Of a stretch of 35,951 nucleotides of DNA, positions 22,330 through 35,948 are shown piece by piece. Source of the stretch: Flavobacteriaceae bacterium (lineage in GTDB: Bacteria > Bacteroidota > Bacteroidia > Flavobacteriales > Flavobacteriaceae); the NCBI GenBank assembly GCA_013215105.1, contig JABSPL010000081.1:1-35951 (forward strand), written 5' to 3'. The notes beneath the pieces were generated by a model that saw only the letters and a list, made by a program, of their open reading frames with translations, was not told the origin of the DNA and searched no databases. Position 1 is the first letter of the stretch. Every line of letters begins with the position of its first letter. Both the position numbers and the translations under genes were made by a program.

Positions 22330-23262
22330 TTAAAATAGTCTTTTATATCTTCTAATTACCAAATTCCAATAATCTACTTTCTTATTTTTACTCAAAAAAG
22401 AAATATTAATCAGGTCTTCTGCTATATTTTTATTTTTTAGAAGTCTTTTATAAACCGAATTTATCTGTTTGTCGTTTAGTCCCATATTTATAGCAAAGGA
22501 ATTAAAGTCTTGCTTATTCAAACGGTTTTTCTTTCCGTTTAGAGTAAGTGCTAATTCCTCTTTATCCTCTGGATTTATTATTGCTACATTTAATAAATCG
22601 TAAGCAGGAGATAAAGACCAACCCAATGGAGTTTCTATCATAGAAAAGTTTTTGAGGTGCATATCGTTATTACCAAACAAAAAACTAAACACTGTCAATT
22701 CAAAAAACTGAATTTTATCGAAAACAATATTAGTAGTATATGAGTTTAAAGCCTTAGATATTTTTTCCATTGAACTTTTATATTTATTAACGGCTTGTGT
22801 TATTTGAAACATATCTAACATATGTATTTTATCAGATTGTTCTGTTCGGTCTATCCGTTTGGTCAGATATGATAGCTCTCCTGATTTTAAACGTATCAGG
22901 GTAGGAACTGTCTTTATATCAAAAGCAGCGGCTATTTTCATAGTCAAATGCTCATTTTCGGGCATTTCAGGAAAGTTTACAGTAGGAGGTTTAAATATAT
23001 AATTACCACCCAAAGCACCAACTACAGTAAGTCTATTATCTTGTTTAGCGGACTTTTGATTTAACAAACTCATAGATAATTTGGCTTGTACACCTGGTAC
23101 CGATACGCTTCTTTCTACTATGTATTTAGCCAAATCATTCATTTGTTCCAAAGAGTAATCTAACTCAGGAGCTTGTTTGTTTCCAAAGAAACTCAAACTA
23201 CAGCCTTGATGATAATCACCTTTTTCTAATCGTTTATAGCAGTACAAACATTTATTTTTCAT
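22330..23262 (-). CDS. hipT: HipT-like Ser/Thr kinase toxin
   Basis: A 310-residue HipA-type kinase without the N-terminal HipA_N subdomain, which is a separate gene upstream. It begins with a zinc-like cluster (C5, C8, H18, C21), common in Bacteroidota HipA proteins. The kinase core has VPGVQAKLS (55-63, the Gly-rich/autophosphorylation loop region), YIFKPP (K91, ATP), FGNNDMHLKNF (catalytic D200) and SPAYDLLN (D222, metal). By family such kinases phosphorylate aminoacyl-tRNA synthetases and arrest translation. It is last in the hipB-hipS-hipT operon and overlaps hipS by 11 nt. All catalytic residues are present, so the toxin looks active. Confidence 0.85.
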   Translation of the reverse strand: MKNKCLYCYKRLEKGDYHQGCSLSFFGNKQAPELDYSLEQMNDLAKYIVERSVSVPGVQAKLSMSLLNQKSAKQDNRLTVVGALGGNYIFKPPTVNFPEMPENEHLTMKIAAAFDIKTVPTLIRLKSGELSYLTKRIDRTEQSDKIHMLDMFQITQAVNKYKSSMEKISKALNSYTTNIVFDKIQFFELTVFSFLFGNNDMHLKNFSMIETPLGWSLSPAYDLLNVAIINPEDKEELALTLNGKKNRLNKQDFNSFAINMGLNDKQINSVYKRLLKNKNIAEDLINISFLSKNKKVDYWNLVIRRYKRLF

Positions 23263-23587
23263 CTTTAATTTTTAAAGGTTTTACACTAACTGCTCCTATG
23301 CAATTGTTACAACAAGCAAGTAGAAGACCCATTCTATCAGAATTATCTATTTTCCAATTTTTAGTAGCTATATTTAGCAACCAACCTTCAGGAATCAATC
23401 CTTCAAAAAAAGGAAATAACCTGTCACTTGTATATATATTGTCGTTTACAGGCATAGAAAAACATATAAAATCATTGCTATGTTCTTTTATATATTCTGC
23501 TTGATAAACAAAGGAATATTCACCCAGATCAGACTCTTTTAATATCCCTGCAAGTTTGTCTTTATAAAATATTTCAGCTATTCTCAT
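23252..23587 (-). CDS. hipS: HipS-like subunit (HipA N-terminal domain)
   Basis: A 111-residue stand-alone HipA_N (couple_hipA) domain: AEIFYKDKLAGILKE, then FSMPVNDNIYTSDRLFPFFEGLIPEGWLL and DRMGLLLACCNNCIGAVSVKPL. In E. coli HipBST this small protein, not HipB, neutralises HipT; the same role is inferred here from gene order and domain split. It overlaps hipB by 14 nt and hipT by 11 nt, so the three are translationally coupled. A frameshifted full-length hipA is an alternative, but both halves have clean starts and overlaps, and the split matches the known tripartite system. Confidence 0.8.
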   Translation of the reverse strand: MRIAEIFYKDKLAGILKESDLGEYSFVYQAEYIKEHSNDFICFSMPVNDNIYTSDRLFPFFEGLIPEGWLLNIATKNWKIDNSDRMGLLLACCNNCIGAVSVKPLKIKDEK

Positions 23588-23801
23588 TGTCTATTTTTTC
23601 AAGTTCTCTTACCGATATAGGAGCTAATATTTGCCCAAACATAGCAAGTACTATATTAACCTTATCTAAGGATAGATTGGTTTTTCCTTGCTCTATTTTT
23701 CTGATAACCGTTAAGGCTACCCCTGCTCTATTTGCAAACTCTTCTTGAGTCAGCCCTATTGCTTTTCTTCTTTCTTTTACGAATGTAGATAAATCTTTCA
23801 T
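23574..23801 (-). CDS. hipB: HipB-like HTH repressor
   Basis: A 75-residue XRE-type DNA-binding protein: LSTFVKERRKAIGLTQEEFANRAGVALTVIRKIEQG, and a short C-terminal tail. It is the first gene of hipB-hipS-hipT. The region directly upstream has repeated TACGTATA motifs, including an 18-bp palindrome, consistent with autoregulation. In a HipBST system HipB mainly serves as DNA-binding repressor and augments HipS. Confidence 0.85.
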   Translation of the reverse strand: MKDLSTFVKERRKAIGLTQEEFANRAGVALTVIRKIEQGKTNLSLDKVNIVLAMFGQILAPISVRELEKIDNENS

Positions 23802-25539: not shown

Positions 25540-26034
25540 TTATTTTTGTTGATACATATAAGCTACTAATTTAGCTTTAACCTCTGCTTTTTTAGTAAGT
25601 CCTCCTGGTCTTCCTCCAACTCTACCTCTTAACTTAGCAGCTTCTAAACCTGCATTGGTTCGTTCTATTATTATATCTCTCTCTAATTGTGAAATAGCCG
25701 AAAACATAGTGAAGATGAATTTACCTTGAGAAGAACCAGTATCTAAGAAAGGTTCTTGTATGCTTTTAAAATCAATACCCTTAGTATTGAATTCTTCCAT
25801 CAATTGAGCTAGATGTATAGTACTCCTAGCTATTCTATCAATCTTCCATACGAGTAAGACATCTCCTTTTTTTAACCTAGTTAAAAGCTCGTCTAAACCT
25901 TTTCTCTTTTCTTTAGCTCCTGAAGATATATCTATATATATATTCTTTGGATCTATATTTTCTTTTTTAAAAGCATCTAACTGTAAATCGAAGTTTTGAG
26001 CTTCAGTGGAAATTCTTGCGTATGCGAATATCAT
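25540..26034 (-). CDS. Serine resolvase/invertase lacking its HTH domain
   Basis: A 164-residue catalytic domain of a small serine recombinase. YARISTEAQN carries the nucleophile S9; DVLLVWKIDRIARS and TMFSAISQLERDIIIERTNAGLEAAK hold the conserved Arg residues and the E helix. It ends at YMYQQK with an in-frame TAA, just before the DNA-binding HTH, which is still encoded downstream. As made, it could assemble but would bind its site poorly. It starts 6 bp after the abiEii stop on the same strand, so it is read with the AbiE operon and has no promoter of its own. Pieces of a second resolvase gene lie at 22013-22145 and 27821-27873. Confidence 0.85.
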   Translation of the reverse strand: MIFAYARISTEAQNFDLQLDAFKKENIDPKNIYIDISSGAKEKRKGLDELLTRLKKGDVLLVWKIDRIARSTIHLAQLMEEFNTKGIDFKSIQEPFLDTGSSQGKFIFTMFSAISQLERDIIIERTNAGLEAAKLRGRVGGRPGGLTKKAEVKAKLVAYMYQQK

Positions 26035-26040
26035 AGGTTA

Positions 26041-27024
26041 TTATTTTAGATTTTCAATATTCCATTTAATTTTTTTTAATCTATCGGATACTATATTTAA
26101 AGTACTTAACATTTTCTTGTCTTCAGGAAACTTACCGAAGACTAGGTCTTTAAATATAGTGTTATAAGTGTTTTCTAACTTAGCCCAAGTGTTTTCGGTT
26201 TCTGAAAATAATATAACTGTTGAAGGATGATTGTATAGCCATTTATTATTGTTTTTAAAACTATATACATCATCATTGGCTACTTTTATCAGCATGTCAT
26301 CAAAGTGTGAAGATTCAAAAAAAGAATTTAATTCTTGGTTTTCGAGTATCATATAGATATCGTAAATATGCCTTATTTTATTATTTAAGTCAGATATAGG
26401 ATTTTCTGTCTGAGAAAACCTAACTAAGCTCATTATTTTTTCACATAAAGTTCTTTTAGGGCTCAATAGTAAAACCTCAAAAGGTCTCATTTGGTACTTT
26501 TCAATAAGATTATCCTGGTTAGATAGTAACATCATTTCATAAATATAAGATGATGTTTCAGAACTTTCATAAGGCTCAAAATGACCTAACCAGGTTGATT
26601 CTACTATAATATTATCTCTAACTTGGTTAAAATCTCCATCAAAACATTTTTCATAGCTATGTGCTGTTTTACGTATCATACCTTTTTTATGAGTTATACC
26701 TTCTATATCTATTTCAGGGATAATCCCAGATATGTAATTAGAAATTTTCTTAATTTTAGTTTTAAGCTGATTATTGGTTTCACCTTCATTTCGTAATACA
26801 ACTAAATCGATATCTTCAGAAAAACGTTCTATTATATTATTGCATTTAGACAGTGCTGTACCTCCTTTAAAAACAACGTCCTTACTTAGTTCTCCCTTAT
26901 ATATTATGTTAAGTGCTAAAGTAACCCAGTAATCTTTTTCTATATAAATTTCAGGGATTCCTTTTTGTTGAGAAGTAGCAATTATGGCTTGCTTAAATAA
27001 TTCTGTGTTTTCGTGTAAATTCAT
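26041..27024 (-). CDS. AbiEii-type nucleotidyltransferase toxin
   Basis: A 327-residue toxin of the AbiEii/AbiGii family, a DNA polymerase beta-like nucleotidyltransferase. In characterised members it blocks translation by modifying tRNA ends; the system acts in phage abortive infection. The motifs VFKGGTALSK and RFSEDIDLVV (Ser-x-Asp-x-Asp metal ligands) are intact, and a conserved LLSPKRTLCEKIMSLVRFS follows in the middle. I chose the ATG at 27024 (MNLHENTELF), because it makes a 4-nt ATGA overlap with the antitoxin gene; an ATG at 27036 would add four residues. It is followed after 6 bp by the resolvase. Confidence 0.88.
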   Translation of the reverse strand: MNLHENTELFKQAIIATSQQKGIPEIYIEKDYWVTLALNIIYKGELSKDVVFKGGTALSKCNNIIERFSEDIDLVVLRNEGETNNQLKTKIKKISNYISGIIPEIDIEGITHKKGMIRKTAHSYEKCFDGDFNQVRDNIIVESTWLGHFEPYESSETSSYIYEMMLLSNQDNLIEKYQMRPFEVLLLSPKRTLCEKIMSLVRFSQTENPISDLNNKIRHIYDIYMILENQELNSFFESSHFDDMLIKVANDDVYSFKNNNKWLYNHPSTVILFSETENTWAKLENTYNTIFKDLVFGKFPEDKKMLSTLNIVSDRLKKIKWNIENLK

Positions 27025-27731
27025 ATAATGTTCCAATTATTAACGGTACTTAATAAGTCCTCTGATATAGTATAATTGTATTCAGAAAGAGGATTTAAAC
27101 TCTTTTTAATATTTATAGTTTCAATATCAAGAACTTCTAATAAAGCTCCCAAAAAAGCTCTAACTCTAGGAGGGTAAGACAAGGATGATTTTATTAATAA
27201 CTTGATTTCGTTAGTATCTAATCCTTTTAATATATTTGTAAGTATTATAATACCATCTTTTTTATCTAAATTAGGGATCTTTTTAAAATCTTTTAGAGCG
27301 TCTAAAAATCCTAATAAATGAAAGTTATTAGATGTGACATCTATATAGCTTTTGACAGGAGAACCTTTTATATTACCGATAGAAATAGTTATTCTTTTAT
27401 CTCTACAGGCTATTTTTATGCTTTTGGAAACCTGAGTAGTTAAGCCCATCTTATTGTATAATGATATGCCTGTAACATACGCTATTCTCTTATTGTTTTT
27501 AAAAAGATAAGATTTTAATAGTTCATCTTCATTAGGGATCAATTCTCCGAAAACTGTTTGTAGAGGTTTGTAAAACACACCTGTAGAAATACGCTTTATC
27601 ATCCCTTCCGATATAAACCTTTCAATAGCTTTAGTAGCAGCACCGTATTCATTTGGAGCAATAGATAGCTGTTGATACTTAAAAGTAGTACCAACTCTTA
27701 TTTTAATTAATTGTTTCTCTATTTTTCTCAT
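27021..27731 (-). CDS. AbiEi-like antitoxin (DUF6088-type wHTH)
   Basis: Cognate antitoxin of AbiEii by position. From the ATG at 27731 (MRKIEKQLIKIRVG) it is 236 residues; the more upstream ATG at 27743 is nearly at the expected transcription start, so 27731 is favoured. The N-terminal 60 residues look like a winged helix (YGAATKAIERFISEGMIKRISTGVFY is split around its recognition region), and AYVTGISLYNKMGLTTQV is typical of AbiEi/DUF6088 proteins. These antitoxins also repress their own promoter, and an inverted repeat lies just upstream (27772-27797). Confidence 0.8.
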   Translation of the reverse strand: MRKIEKQLIKIRVGTTFKYQQLSIAPNEYGAATKAIERFISEGMIKRISTGVFYKPLQTVFGELIPNEDELLKSYLFKNNKRIAYVTGISLYNKMGLTTQVSKSIKIACRDKRITISIGNIKGSPVKSYIDVTSNNFHLLGFLDALKDFKKIPNLDKKDGIIILTNILKGLDTNEIKLLIKSSLSYPPRVRAFLGALLEVLDIETINIKKSLNPLSEYNYTISEDLLSTVNNWNII

Positions 27732-27747
27732 TACGCTAACCATAATA

Positions 27748-27797
27748 CAAAGATAATGTTTTTATTTCAAATCAAGTAAACCAAACATTATACTTGA
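27748..27797 (-). promoter_or_regulatory. abiE promoter and candidate operator
   Basis: Minus strand has TATCTTTG (27748-27755), a good TAnnTTTG -7 box. Upstream, tcaagta (27772-27778) and tacttga (27791-27797) are inverted repeats with a 12-bp spacer that cover the -33 region. Characterised AbiEi proteins bind inverted repeats at this place. Confidence 0.5.
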
Positions 27798-27820
27798 CAA
27801 TATAAATTAGATAATCCAAA

Positions 27821-27873
27821 TTGTAAATCGAAGTTCTGTCCTTCGGTTGACACTCTAGCGTATGCGAATATCA
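27821..27873 (-). pseudogene. Resolvase N-terminal scar (copy A)
   Basis: Minus strand encodes MIFAYARVSTEGQNFDLQ and then leaves the resolvase sequence. The 60-bp segment 27821-27880 matches 25981-26040, the start of the intact resolvase, at 50 of 60 positions, with the last 22 bp before the final base identical. It lies 78 bp upstream of the abiE start, so the AbiE module is flanked by two copies of the resolvase 5' end in direct orientation. Confidence 0.8.
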
Positions 27874-27913
27874 TAGGTTTGGAGGTTTTTTTCAAATAAT
27901 AACAAACATACTC

Positions 27914-28048
27914 AATTAGTTCATTTAAACGTCCAAAAATAGACTAATTAAATGAACTAGTTTAATGAACTCTTAGTTGGTTGGTTTTAAAGGTAAAAGT
28001 GTTTTTAGTAAATAGTTCATTTAAACGATCGTTTAAATGAACTATTTA
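27914..28048. repeat. Palindromic half-site cluster, possible res site
   Basis: A perfect 40-bp palindrome covers 28009-28048, centred between 28028 and 28029, with the core gttcatttaaacgatcgttt. The half-site tagttcatttaa recurs at 27917-27928 (direct) and 27948-27959 (inverted, 19-bp spacer), and a shorter form (tttaatgaact) at 27961-27971. That makes five half-sites in 135 bp, beginning about 45 bp upstream of the resolvase N-terminal scar, where res sites usually lie. Alternatives are operators of a neighbouring repressor or a terminator for the antitoxin gene ending at 28084. Confidence 0.6.
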
Positions 28049-28083
28049 ATCATCAAACATCATTGGATTAGAAGCGTAAATTT

Positions 28084-28581
28084 CTATAGACCTAATGTCA
28101 TTATTCTAGTTGAAAGTTCTTCCTTTTTAAGGTTATCAATAGAATCACATACCTTAATATAATAAGATATAATATCTTTATTATTAATACTCATTTTAAT
28201 TAGCCTTCCACTAGTTAGAGATGTTACTCCATTATTTTCAATATTAGAAATTGTGTTTTTACTAAAACCTAATATGATACTTAATGTTGATGCCGCAATA
28301 TGGTATTTTTCTCTAAATTTAATAATTTCATTTGGAGCAGCTGCTCCTTTTGAAATAAGATAAGAGCTCTTTAGAGTTTTCATATTACGGCTAATTTGAC
28401 TTTTGGTATAATACTCAACTTTATTATGCTTATCAATCATACCTGTATCTTCATCCACATCATAGTCTAAATAATACACTTCTTTATATGACAATTTAAT
28501 GCCTTTGAATATTTTATTGACCTCTCTTTGTAACTCATCCGTAGGTTTATTGTCTCTTGTTAGTATTTTTTTTGTTCCCAT
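28084..28581 (-). CDS. MqsA-like HTH antitoxin
   Basis: A 165-residue protein. The N-terminal half is charged, without the zinc cysteines of E. coli MqsA. The C-terminal half is an XRE-like HTH: APNEIIKFREKYHIAASTLSIILGFSKNTISNIENNG. It follows the presumed toxin by 4 bp, giving the toxin-first order typical of MqsRA and HigBA. By family it would neutralise the toxin and repress the operon. Codon use is richer in ATT/AAT than the ATA-heavy backbone, which suggests transfer. The family call is moderate. Confidence 0.6.
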   Translation of the reverse strand: MGTKKILTRDNKPTDELQREVNKIFKGIKLSYKEVYYLDYDVDEDTGMIDKHNKVEYYTKSQISRNMKTLKSSYLISKGAAAPNEIIKFREKYHIAASTLSIILGFSKNTISNIENNGVTSLTSGRLIKMSINNKDIISYYIKVCDSIDNLKKEELSTRIMTLGL

Positions 28582-28585
28582 AACT

Positions 28586-28966
28586 TTAATTTTTAAAAGG
28601 TTGACTCATTGGAAAATTAGGTATATGATTGGAAAATATCAGTATTTGTAAACCATTAACTTCAAGTCCATATTTTAGATAAATTTCAACATCATCACTT
28701 CCTACAAACACACGAAAGGCACAAACATTAAAATCAGCTCCACCTGACGGATCAACTCCTCTATAATAGTTTTCAGGTGTTAAGTTTAGAATAGCATTTT
28801 CGATATCATTTTCATTAATATCATAACCAAGCATAATTTCTTCTAACTCTGAACTTGCTTTCCTTGTAAAAGTTATATCCACACCTTCAGAAATTCTTTT
28901 TTTTGTCTCTGTAAGAAATCCCTGTATTATGTTAAGGTTGTCAATTGTGTTAAGTAATTTTATCAT
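28586..28966 (-). CDS. MqsR-like toxin
   Basis: A 126-residue protein with the MqsR-like layout: DITFTRKASSELEEIMLGYD, then DIENAILNLTPENYYRG and a C-terminal beta part EIYLKYGLEVNGLQILIFSNH. In MqsR the matching parts are the helix before the 'sL...dFyks' segment and the final strand vlvvSFK. MqsR is a RelE-fold RNase that cuts mRNA at GCU; whether this protein does so is not visible. It is first in a two-gene operon with its own promoter and operator (28989-29030). A related RelE-fold toxin of another family is the main alternative. Confidence 0.55.
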   Translation of the reverse strand: MIKLLNTIDNLNIIQGFLTETKKRISEGVDITFTRKASSELEEIMLGYDINENDIENAILNLTPENYYRGVDPSGGADFNVCAFRVFVGSDDVEIYLKYGLEVNGLQILIFSNHIPNFPMSQPFKN

Positions 28967-28988
28967 ACATATTAATATATTGCTTATA

Positions 28989-29030
28989 CAAATATACGAA
29001 GAAATATTCTAAATTCCCAATCATTGGGAA
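28989..29030 (-). promoter_or_regulatory. Promoter and operator of MqsRA-like pair
   Basis: The -7 box TATATTTG (28989-28996, minus) lies 21 nt downstream of a TTG inside the 17-bp palindrome ttcccaat-c-attgggaa (29014-29030). The palindrome thus covers the -33 element, which is the expected place for a TA autorepressor. The leader is about 20 nt. Confidence 0.65.
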
Positions 29031-29070
29031 AAATCACAAGGGAATTAAATAATAATACTAAGATTTCTTT

Positions 29071-29180
29071 TGACAACTCTCCCACCTAAAGGAGGAAGAT
29101 TCTACCCCAAGCCTTAGGCTAATGCCTTTACTTTACTCCAAAGCTTCTCAGCCTAGTAATGTATCGTATTACTTTTTTTG
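29071..29180 (-). mobile_element. Relic resembling an IS200/IS605 right end
   Basis: On the minus strand this reads as a tnpB-like tail and ends with a short hairpin around cctcctttaggtgg and a terminal gttgtca, a pattern I associate with right ends of IS200/IS605-type elements. The hairpin (29079-29087 with 29090-29098) pairs at 7 of 9. No transposase ORF remains. On the + strand, agtaat/attact (29155-29160, 29168-29173) followed by T7 looks like a small terminator. The rest, 29181-29415, holds no gene or clear structure. The call is by resemblance only. Confidence 0.35.
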
Positions 29181-29415
29181 TGATCTCCTGTAGCTATTGC
29201 CTCTGAATTTTAAGGGAAAGAAAGATTTTAAGAGGATAGCTCAATAATGGTGATTTTATTGGACTGTTGTACGCTTGTGAAATGGGTTCGTTTATTCTAT
29301 CTACTGTAAACACTCTTAAATCACAGTTTGCTTGTTTTTAAGTGTATTCTTAAGTCTATACTTTATTTAAGTTTGGAATACTTTAAAATATTATACTATT
29401 GGTTAAATAAATACA

Positions 29416-29505
29416 TATATTTGTGACGTTATATTTTAAAAATATAACGAAGTACTATAAAGGTTGGATATACGATATTCGTATAACTGAACGTTAATTG
29501 CAATT
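29416..29505 (+). promoter_or_regulatory. Promoter and structured leader of ATPase-TOPRIM gene
   Basis: TATATTTG at 29416-29423 fits the -7 consensus, about 100 nt before the ATG. The predicted leader holds three inverted repeats in a row: 29427-29436 with 29440-29449 (10 bp, 3-nt loop), 29469-29475 with 29479-29485 (tatacga/tcgtata), and the 12-bp palindrome taattgcaatta (29494-29505). They could be operators or RNA structures. Confidence 0.5.
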
Positions 29506-35180: not shown

Positions 35181-35948
35181 ATGATAAAGAAATTATTTTT
35201 AAGCCAAGTATTCATATTGGTATTAATACTACTTAACTCGGTAATAATATTTGCCATTGGCTTCGATATGTCTACGAGTAGTCGTTTTATGCTTTCTCTG
35301 GCTGACAATACAATAACGGGTTTGTTTGTAATAGAGATAATAGTAAAGTTAAGGGAGCAAGGTATTAGAAACTACTTTAAGTTCAATTGGAATGTTTTTG
35401 ATTTCGTACTAGTAGCAATATCCTTGCCTACACTTATAGCGTTTGTAGGTAATATAGAGGTAAGTAGTATGAGTTATTTGCTTGTATTTAGGGTTCTCAG
35501 GGTTTTCAAATCTTTTAGATTCTTGAAGTTTATCCCTGGCATTGATCATCTGATAAAAGGAGTGAGTAGAGCCTTAAAAGCTTCAGTAATAGTTTTATTA
35601 GGTTTTGTAATTTACATTTTTATAATAGGTATATTTTCATTCTATCTATTCAAGGAGCTATCTCCAGAGTACTTTGGTAATCCACTTAATTCGTTATATT
35701 CTACATTCAAGATATTCACTGTAGAGGGTTGGTACGATATACCTGAGAGTATAACTAAAGGTTTATCTTCGACTGTTTCATTTTTTATATATCTATATTT
35801 TGTATTTATAGTAATAACAGGAGGTGTGTTTGGTATGTCTCTGGTTAACTCTATATTCGTAGATGCAATGGTAAGCGACAATAACGATAATTTGGAGAGG
35901 AAGATAGAGGAGCTAAACAAAAAGATGGATAGGTTGTTAGATAAGTAG
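35181..35948 (+). CDS. BacNav-type voltage-gated cation channel, filter TVEGW
   Basis: A 255-residue six-helix channel subunit that would form tetramers in the inner membrane. S1-S3 span about 5-95. The voltage sensor S4 is VFRVLRVFKSFRFLKF, with basic residues every third position. S5 is about 130-155, a pore helix follows, and the filter is FTVEGWYD; S6 is about 197-228 and ends in a coiled coil (NLERKIEELNKKMDRLLDK) as in NaChBac-like channels. The NaChBac filter is TLESW; here Ser is Gly. It starts 28 bp after the type IIG gene on the same strand, so it may share its transcript. The stop codon is 3 bp from the window end, so the protein is complete. Confidence 0.88.
   Translation: MIKKLFLSQVFILVLILLNSVIIFAIGFDMSTSSRFMLSLADNTITGLFVIEIIVKLREQGIRNYFKFNWNVFDFVLVAISLPTLIAFVGNIEVSSMSYLLVFRVLRVFKSFRFLKFIPGIDHLIKGVSRALKASVIVLLGFVIYIFIIGIFSFYLFKELSPEYFGNPLNSLYSTFKIFTVEGWYDIPESITKGLSSTVSFFIYLYFVFIVITGGVFGMSLVNSIFVDAMVSDNNDNLERKIEELNKKMDRLLDK

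Follow-up and report, generated by a model that had tools for sequence, protein, structure and literature searches.

A 40-bp palindrome beside a truncated resolvase gene as the probable crossover site of a proposed integron-like gene-cassette system with a small serine recombinase

Integrons, the textbook example of gene collection, owe their definition to a single lineage of tyrosine integrases. Serine recombinases can also serve many sites or build up composite loci: the Mpi master invertase of Bacteroides acts on many dispersed sites, and in the SCC/Ccr system elements are stacked at one site. The prevalence of integrons varies widely in phyla including Bacteroidota, according to one report (PMC9668308); within Bacteroidetes proper, the complete integrons newly reported with IntegronFinder 2.0 are confined to Salinibacter (PMC9024848). 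A further report describes the rAID loci of Bacteroidales, in which a predicted tyrosine recombinase is combined with immunity genes, co-oriented short genes and conserved intergenic motifs (PMC12247911). Our literature search retrieved no account of serine-recombinase cassette arrays; bioRxiv preprints lay outside its scope, so that this absence is weak evidence. Here we analyse a locus that probably belongs to such a system, namely an integron-like gene-cassette system that uses a small serine recombinase and has a perfect palindrome as its site I.

The window, that is, the whole stretch of DNA analysed (35,951 nt), is the entire contig C205 of a draft genome of 3.05 Mb in 224 contigs (92% complete), whose gene content points to Bacteroidota, probably Flavobacteriaceae. 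Reading along the minus strand, one meets first the MqsA-like pair and the palindrome, then the half-site block and the 5' scar of a resolvase gene, and finally the AbiE-like pair and the resolvase ORF. The features are as follows:

25540 to 26034, minus strand: small serine recombinase with a whole catalytic domain and an in-frame stop before the helix-turn-helix; the frame stays open past the stop.
26041 to 27036, minus strand: AbiEii-like nucleotidyltransferase toxin (PF08843).
27021 to 27743, minus strand: AbiEi-like partner, a DUF6088 match (PF19570) named AbiEi by its position.
27819 to 27874, minus strand: 5' scar of a resolvase gene, 46 of 55 positions identical to the start of the ORF at 26034.
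27916 to 27990, no strand assigned: accessory-site block, with similar blocks in the own genome on contigs C195, C119 and C181.
27917 to 27931, minus strand: site III-like half-site, CGTTTAAATGAACTA on the minus strand, from the alignment with relatives.
27935 to 27974, minus strand: site II-like block with half-sites 27961-27972 and 27948-27959, aligned with the AGTTTAW...TTAATTAGT block of relatives.
28009 to 28048, no strand assigned: perfect palindrome, read as crossover site I plus cassette junction; core 28013-28044, TAGTTCATTTAAACG-AT-CGTTTAAATGAACTA.
28084 to 28581, minus strand: MqsA-like antitoxin reading towards the palindrome (TIGR03830, 33 bits against a cut-off of 62); with its partner a putative cassette.
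28586 to 28966, minus strand: ORF paired with the MqsA-like gene, without a match to any family.
29237 to 29266, minus strand: weak candidate for a second, decayed site beyond the MqsA-like pair (10 of 30 positions mismatched; supported by alignment with the C95 site only).

The palindrome is gapless, its two 20-nt arms being 100% complementary with 0 nt between them, and it has the AT centre that the first-pass annotation had described. That annotation also called a palindrome of this length rare by chance; in 200 first-order Markov simulations of the window the arms reached 12 nt at most, in two of the simulations, versus 20 observed. Exact copies of TAGTTCATTTAA lie at 27917 (+), 27948 (-), 28013 (+) and 28033 (-), and one copy with two mismatches at 27961 (-). 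The five half-sites in both orientations that had been claimed were thus recovered within 27917-28044, with those outside the palindrome spanning 27917-27972. Across the whole window, TAGTTCATTTAA at two mismatches is not enriched (9 found versus 17.9 expected); the excess resides in the exact clustered copies and the palindrome, not in the whole-window count. The half-site cluster had been placed about 45 bp upstream of an N-terminal resolvase scar, and this agrees with our measurement: the scar is real, comprises 55 nt ending near 27874 and lies 43 bp from the first half-site. Because only 46 of the 55 positions are alike, it does not represent a simple split of the resolvase ORF; within 26041-27874, the AbiE-like pair sits between this scar and a second, diverged resolvase ORF. 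The accessory block is 88% identical over 75 nt to C195, 91% over 54 nt to C119 and 75% over 117 nt to C181, where the match extends into site I. An Rfam scan of the window at gathering scores yielded zero matches, and positions 27500-29300 found no match among 72,556 plasmid records.

The recombinase of the window matches PF00239 (E 9.2e-40), and five relatives likewise contain a serine recombinase catalytic domain. The invariant residues of a 12-sequence alignment, the window ORF included, are present in the window protein, and the solved sequences nearest to its catalytic domain are a Gin-type invertase and the gamma-delta and Tn3 resolvases. An intact helix-turn-helix, visible by eye in the relatives, is absent from the window protein, as the stop precedes it. 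Six related resolvases of 219-224 residues (L153, L155, L156, L157, L162 and L163) carry a CxxCGxxFWD...CxxH-like C-terminal tail, which a structure model puts behind a three-helix unit (mean pLDDT 79.7, pTM 0.47); the tails of L156 and L162, the two scanned, gave no Pfam match.

Close homologues of the resolvase (E<=1e-40) occur in 15 of 397 same-family genomes, the own genome included; outside the own genome they amount to 19 loci in 14 genomes. As a check on the window site, a search for the same half-site beside homologous resolvases had been proposed. Here, CCGTTTWATTGAACTT with at most 4 mismatches stands at -103 to -109 from the start in 16 of the 19 (all except G411a, G411b and G134), versus 11 of 325 control stretches of 250 bp farther upstream. 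Eighteen upstream regions aligned with window 27914-28048 display site I, a spacer, the site II-like and the site III-like element in the same order, the spacer after site I being longer in the window. In G308, site I begins TAGTTCATTTAAACGACCG, the first 16 bases of which equal those of the window. The centre of site I in the 16 copies of relatives reads AC in 14 and GC in 2. At three loci (G210, G385 and G265) the sequence to the right of site I is nearly identical and that to the left differs between loci. One resolvase of G327 (L251) has CCGTTTTACGGGACA in the site I position at -104, with CCGTTTTA kept and a different outer half that perhaps reflects another specificity. The half-site GTGTCCCGTAAAACG of the G327 resolvase had hinted at another type of array; this idea was discarded, as the stretches at hand contain 3 forward, 5 reverse and 6 control copies. 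By eye, a segment with inverted ends GGCYGTTGCAGAA seems inserted at the site I centre in G118 (L159) and G345 (L167), possibly an insertion element aiming at res sites. Among GTDB r220 contigs, 16 resolvase homologue loci with 45-48% identity are titled Firmicutes, and a half-site with two mismatches lies at one fixed place before 14 of them and before none of the other two; these loci were set aside, as they do not constitute a test of the window site.

Behind the homologous resolvases, an 18-bp half-site, AAAGTTCAAATAAA[C/G]GAT, recurs as direct repeats and closely resembles the resolvase's own site I half. In the 19 resolvase loci AAAGTTCAAATAAACGAT (at most 3 mismatches) was counted 121 times in forward and 5 times in reverse orientation, and four of the five reverse copies are the site I half itself. 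It is lacking in G411a, G411b and G134, which have a resolvase and no array, and found once in G345b; with these four left out, 119 of 120 forward sites in 15 loci lie downstream of the resolvase. Adding 16 stretches that were picked for exact site matches and oriented by them brings the total to 35, with 256 forward and 6 reverse sites versus 3 and 3 for the reversed-pattern control. At least three sites are present in 25 of the 35 stretches, at a median spacing of 620 bp (200 spacings below 3 kb). Across 121 sites the 18 positions, which had been selected for, are conserved, and the flanks, which had not, are neither conserved nor mirrored; only one half is recognisable. The centre of the array site is AT, and in 83 of 256 sites an ATG is placed on it. 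Of the 92 intervals between sites that measure at most 3 kb, 21 lack an ORF of 60 aa or more; in 68 of the other 71 the longest ORF is co-directional with the array. A looser count, in which every non-overlapping ORF within the arrays is included, yields 207 forward and 69 reverse.

Comparison of 235 segments yielded 46 matching pairs, of which 37 are partial and nine alike from end to end (72-98% identity), with their ends at array sites. Six of the nine have unrelated sequence on either side over 100 bp. The other three also share the neighbouring cassette, and two of these represent a two-cassette block present twice in the G415 array (L222; 97-98% identity), in a genome with only distant serine recombinases. 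A cassette common to G385 and G210 agrees at 239 of 249 positions, with flanks at 13/42 and 14/60; a 321-bp cassette in two arrays of G296 agrees at 249/321, with flanks at 10/42 and 18/60; and G420 and G407, labelled as different genera, have a 600-bp cassette in common at 91.5%. Two of the six pairs displayed (G296b-G250 and G296b-G253) match only towards the 3' end. These end-to-end shared cassettes provide the strongest evidence that the 18-bp site acts as a recombination boundary; by such comparisons the mobility of the cassettes is shown and the arrays are well documented. The cargo is diverse: 137 of 169 listed proteins match 120 Pfam families, the commonest among the 25 top families being YhcG nuclease, ParE and outer-membrane barrels (4 each) and HTH proteins. 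PADLOC matches in the arrays include RmrA and PDC-S02, and ParD- and HipB-like antitoxins are present. Cargo variety of this sort is typical of integron arrays.

The genome of the window has no half-site array; array-type sites at two mismatches number 65 versus 47 in the control, which beyond the palindromes looks like chance. It does contain dispersed palindromes. The 32-bp palindrome with at most 3 mismatches occurs at five places versus none for the reversed-pattern control, and TAGTTCA..TGAACTA with 6-30 bases between at nine versus two; one of the nine, on C98, is unlike the rest of the family. The palindromes fall into two classes, of 32- and 28-bp type, TAGTTCATTTAAAC-SATS-GTTTAAATGAACTA and TAGTTCAACAAC-SATS-GTTGTTGAACTA. 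C111 is a hybrid with one half of each class that switches at the AT centre, and C95 a second, poorer hybrid. The left flank of C34a matches C112 (z 7.5; right 0.2) and its right flank C197 (z 24.3; left 3.1); judged from these flanks, C34a is a recombination mosaic at the palindrome site. Seven contigs of the own genome (C112, C34, C197, C146, C47, C111 and C51) match the window around the palindrome only, not in the accessory block, and the search for resolvase ORFs in this draft genome recovered a single one. By eye, a gene or ORF points at the palindrome in C34, C112, C197, C146, C51 and the window. Of the four site-facing genes scanned, that of C34 is an Abi_2 member (E 4.8e-55); the matches of the C112 gene to Mrr_cat and of the C51 gene to DUF4738 stayed below the cut-off, and the C197 gene has none. 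Elsewhere, 27 of 98 other genomes possess one or two TAGTTCA..TGAACTA places, none with an AACSATSGTT centre by eye, and the palindrome pattern found no match in GTDB r220 contigs or IMG/VR, a set to which the own genome possibly does not belong. A flank in the own genome, CCAACCTTAACAAATAC, is RYYYAAC-like by eye; it was dismissed as an integron attC site, as there is no partner box on the other side.

The window site had originally been read as a res site upstream of the resolvase gene. Its layout and placement stand, with the half-site at 16 of 19 homologues and sites I to III aligning, whereas the reading as a resolution site only is too narrow, because the palindromes are dispersed without a resolvase found near them and the half-site marks cassette boundaries in relatives. 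We propose instead that a small serine recombinase of the resolvase/invertase group uses the palindrome for crossover, as its site I, and that 27917-27972 would correspond to accessory sites II and III ahead of a now truncated resolvase gene. The same kind of 16-nt half-site plus the central AT would be the cassette boundary signal in this bacterial family, and a cassette would consist of one or few mostly co-directional genes with the half-site at the 3' end. Recombinase dimers may cut the central AT of two sites and rejoin new halves, so that cassettes leave, enter and re-order; exchange between two directly repeated sites would free a cassette circle, which the reverse reaction would insert. 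Relatives hold long arrays behind the resolvase, and the species of the window has scattered junctions in which both halves are complete. The 40-bp palindrome may then join the 3' half-site of the MqsA-like pair, as a putative cassette, to the resolvase's own half-site. Comparison establishes the similarity of the sites, the res layout, the orientation of the arrays, the exactness of the cassette boundaries and the mosaic flanks; we infer catalysis by the window resolvase, circular intermediates, the direction of capture and the cassette nature of the MqsA-like pair.

Two points of mechanism fit this proposal poorly. Resolvases normally require both half-sites, and the array sites are one-halved. 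In addition, the site I centres of relatives are AC or GC versus AT in the arrays, and exchange between array and site I would therefore create a mismatch there. Array-by-array exchange fits the overlap rule, since these centres are AT, and in the species of the window exchange with the res site would be allowed as well, because site I and the dispersed sites are both AT-centred. Further evidence against the proposal comes from the three homologues that lack the site I half, the looser ORF count, the G327 resolvases, which stand apart from array sites, and the shortened resolvase of G296b, from arrays with only distant serine recombinases or none and from a G327 array headed by a tyrosine recombinase. 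In the window's own genome, the missing array, the stop in the resolvase ORF and a palindrome family that gave no match in GTDB r220 contigs or IMG/VR weigh against it too.

Exact matches to the 17-mer AAGTTCAAATAAASGAT number 124 versus 4 for the reversed pattern and are spread over 33 of 397 family genomes, in 26 of 237 genera. In a class-wide draw of 295 genomes, among them the own genome and ten more from its family or order, it was found in one genome at one place. Six IMG/VR contigs contain the exact site, and the four inspected have 2-3 co-oriented sites each (at most 4 mismatches). At least three exact sites are present in 12 of the 397 genomes, and a close resolvase in 7 of these 12 versus 8 of the 385 others (Fisher p 1.6e-8). 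Eight further site-bearing genomes were searched by profile for a resolvase. G434 has a broken resolvase beside its array and G158 a resolvase remnant inside it; G327 encodes two resolvases with no array sites nearby; G342, G036 and G415 (27 array sites) gave only distant or partial serine recombinase matches; and G407 and G260 none by profile, G407 (10 sites) having none at E<=1e-10. Beside 13 array sites, the resolvase of G296b is cut short (166 aa). As several site-bearing genomes thus have no close resolvase, arrays can evidently survive where no cognate recombinase is recognisable. For tyrosine recombinases, a search by regular expression came back empty and is not used as evidence, since an HMM search of 10 chosen proteins near four site-found arrays then identified one, a Phage_integrase protein (L229:1176-1763) just before the first site of the G327c20 array that was not typed as IntI; the other 34 stretches contain five weak matches to it (E 0.002-0.008) and no strong homologue.

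This protein is pertinent to the view that the arrays are real but are moved by another enzyme, such as a tyrosine recombinase, or by homologous or illegitimate recombination at the 18-bp repeats, with the resolvase only sharing or borrowing the site. Its position directly ahead of an array, the one-halved array sites and the arrays that lack a close resolvase, as in G407 and G415, are compatible with this view. We nevertheless consider it unlikely: the lack of strong homologues in the other stretches, the close likeness of the array half-site to the site I half and the enrichment of the resolvase in array-rich genomes, together with the broken copy in G434 and the remnant in G158, two of the five array-rich genomes outside those seven, all argue for the resolvase, and 18 bp is short for homologous recombination. 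Alternatively, the window might harbour an ordinary transposon- or plasmid-type res site that resolves cointegrates, the dispersed palindromes being leftovers of past copies of the element. The classical res layout, the kinship to Gin-type, gamma-delta and Tn3 enzymes and the recurrence of the accessory block at three other own loci would suit such an origin. It is, however, very unlikely in our estimation, given seven contigs that match around the palindrome only and a single resolvase ORF from the ORF search, and it leaves the one-way arrays with exact cassette ends in relatives unexplained.

That the palindromes serve as regulator operators, terminators or REP-like repeats and take no part in recombination appears highly improbable. 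Several do lie downstream of genes and are perfect or near-perfect inverted repeats; but the flanks switch at the site, the two-class hybrid switches at the AT centre, and the half-site also precedes resolvases. The terminator or REP-like reading was discarded, since by eye there is neither a T-tract nor a G+C-rich stem and the flanks change at the palindrome; the GTAG mark of REP/RAYT hairpins was not seen by eye either. In our proposal, a serine recombinase is the likely engine of the cassette arrays.

Compared with the described systems, the locus and its relatives resemble integrons in their one-way, compact cassette arrays with a 3' recombination site, a recombinase often at the head, recombinase-less (CALIN-like) arrays and diverse cargo including toxin-antitoxin genes; the features of integron-like mobile cassettes, precise boundaries, a gene plus 3' site and one orientation, are all found. 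Unlike integrons, they employ a small serine resolvase and not IntI, and an 18-bp half-site without a mirrored flank. A serine resolvase stands ahead of the sites in 15 of 19 loci, which were themselves chosen by serine resolvase, and in 121 sites the 18-bp motif takes the place of the imperfect inverted repeats of about 50-150 nt that characterize attC. Because two defining features fail, as far as tested, we do not class the palindrome system as an integron; it looks like an independently evolved counterpart. With rAID it shares a recombinase with co-oriented short genes and conserved intergenic motifs, but in place of the predicted tyrosine recombinase and immunity genes described for rAID (PMC12247911), a serine resolvase heads many arrays (15 site-bearing loci) with diverse cargo (120 Pfam families among 137 array-region proteins). 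The catalytic domain, a promoter-side site I with a 2-bp centre and accessory sites II and III are those of Tn3/gamma-delta, Sin and Gin, from which the system differs in that the site I half recurs as array boundaries and one subgroup has the CxxC..CxxH tail. Mpi and SCC/Ccr provide parallels for a serine recombinase with many dispersed sites or stacking, with family matches below cut-off; the segments here are gene-sized (median spacing 620 bp), in contrast to tens of kilobases for SCC.

Overall, we lean towards a gene-capture platform unrelated to IntI, with a serine resolvase, 18-bp one-sided AT-centre sites and shuffled arrays, spread over many genera of one family, probably Flavobacteriaceae. 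If true, this would be a second, serine-resolvase solution, and cassette capture would have arisen on more than one occasion. Little-known accessory genes (toxin-antitoxin, defence-like and outer-membrane proteins) would become accessible from a new source, a recombination tool with short sites would be gained, and resolvase action on one-sided sites could be tested directly. Such a solution would sit in a phylum for which IntegronFinder 2.0 reported few complete integrons (PMC9024848).

Beyond the MqsA-like pair, positions 29131-29496 of the window form a dispersed repeat located before ATPase and restriction-type genes. Its part 29390-29496 shares 99% identity with the opening 107 bp of contig C34, and 29131-29491 shares 73% with C95 across 366 bp; more copies lie in C181 and C112. 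Ion-channel genes alike by eye occur in the window (35181-35948) and near the C112 palindrome (L021:11537-12310; Ion_trans in C112). A HipB/HipA-like gene trio was recognized by eye from the translations at 22330-23801.
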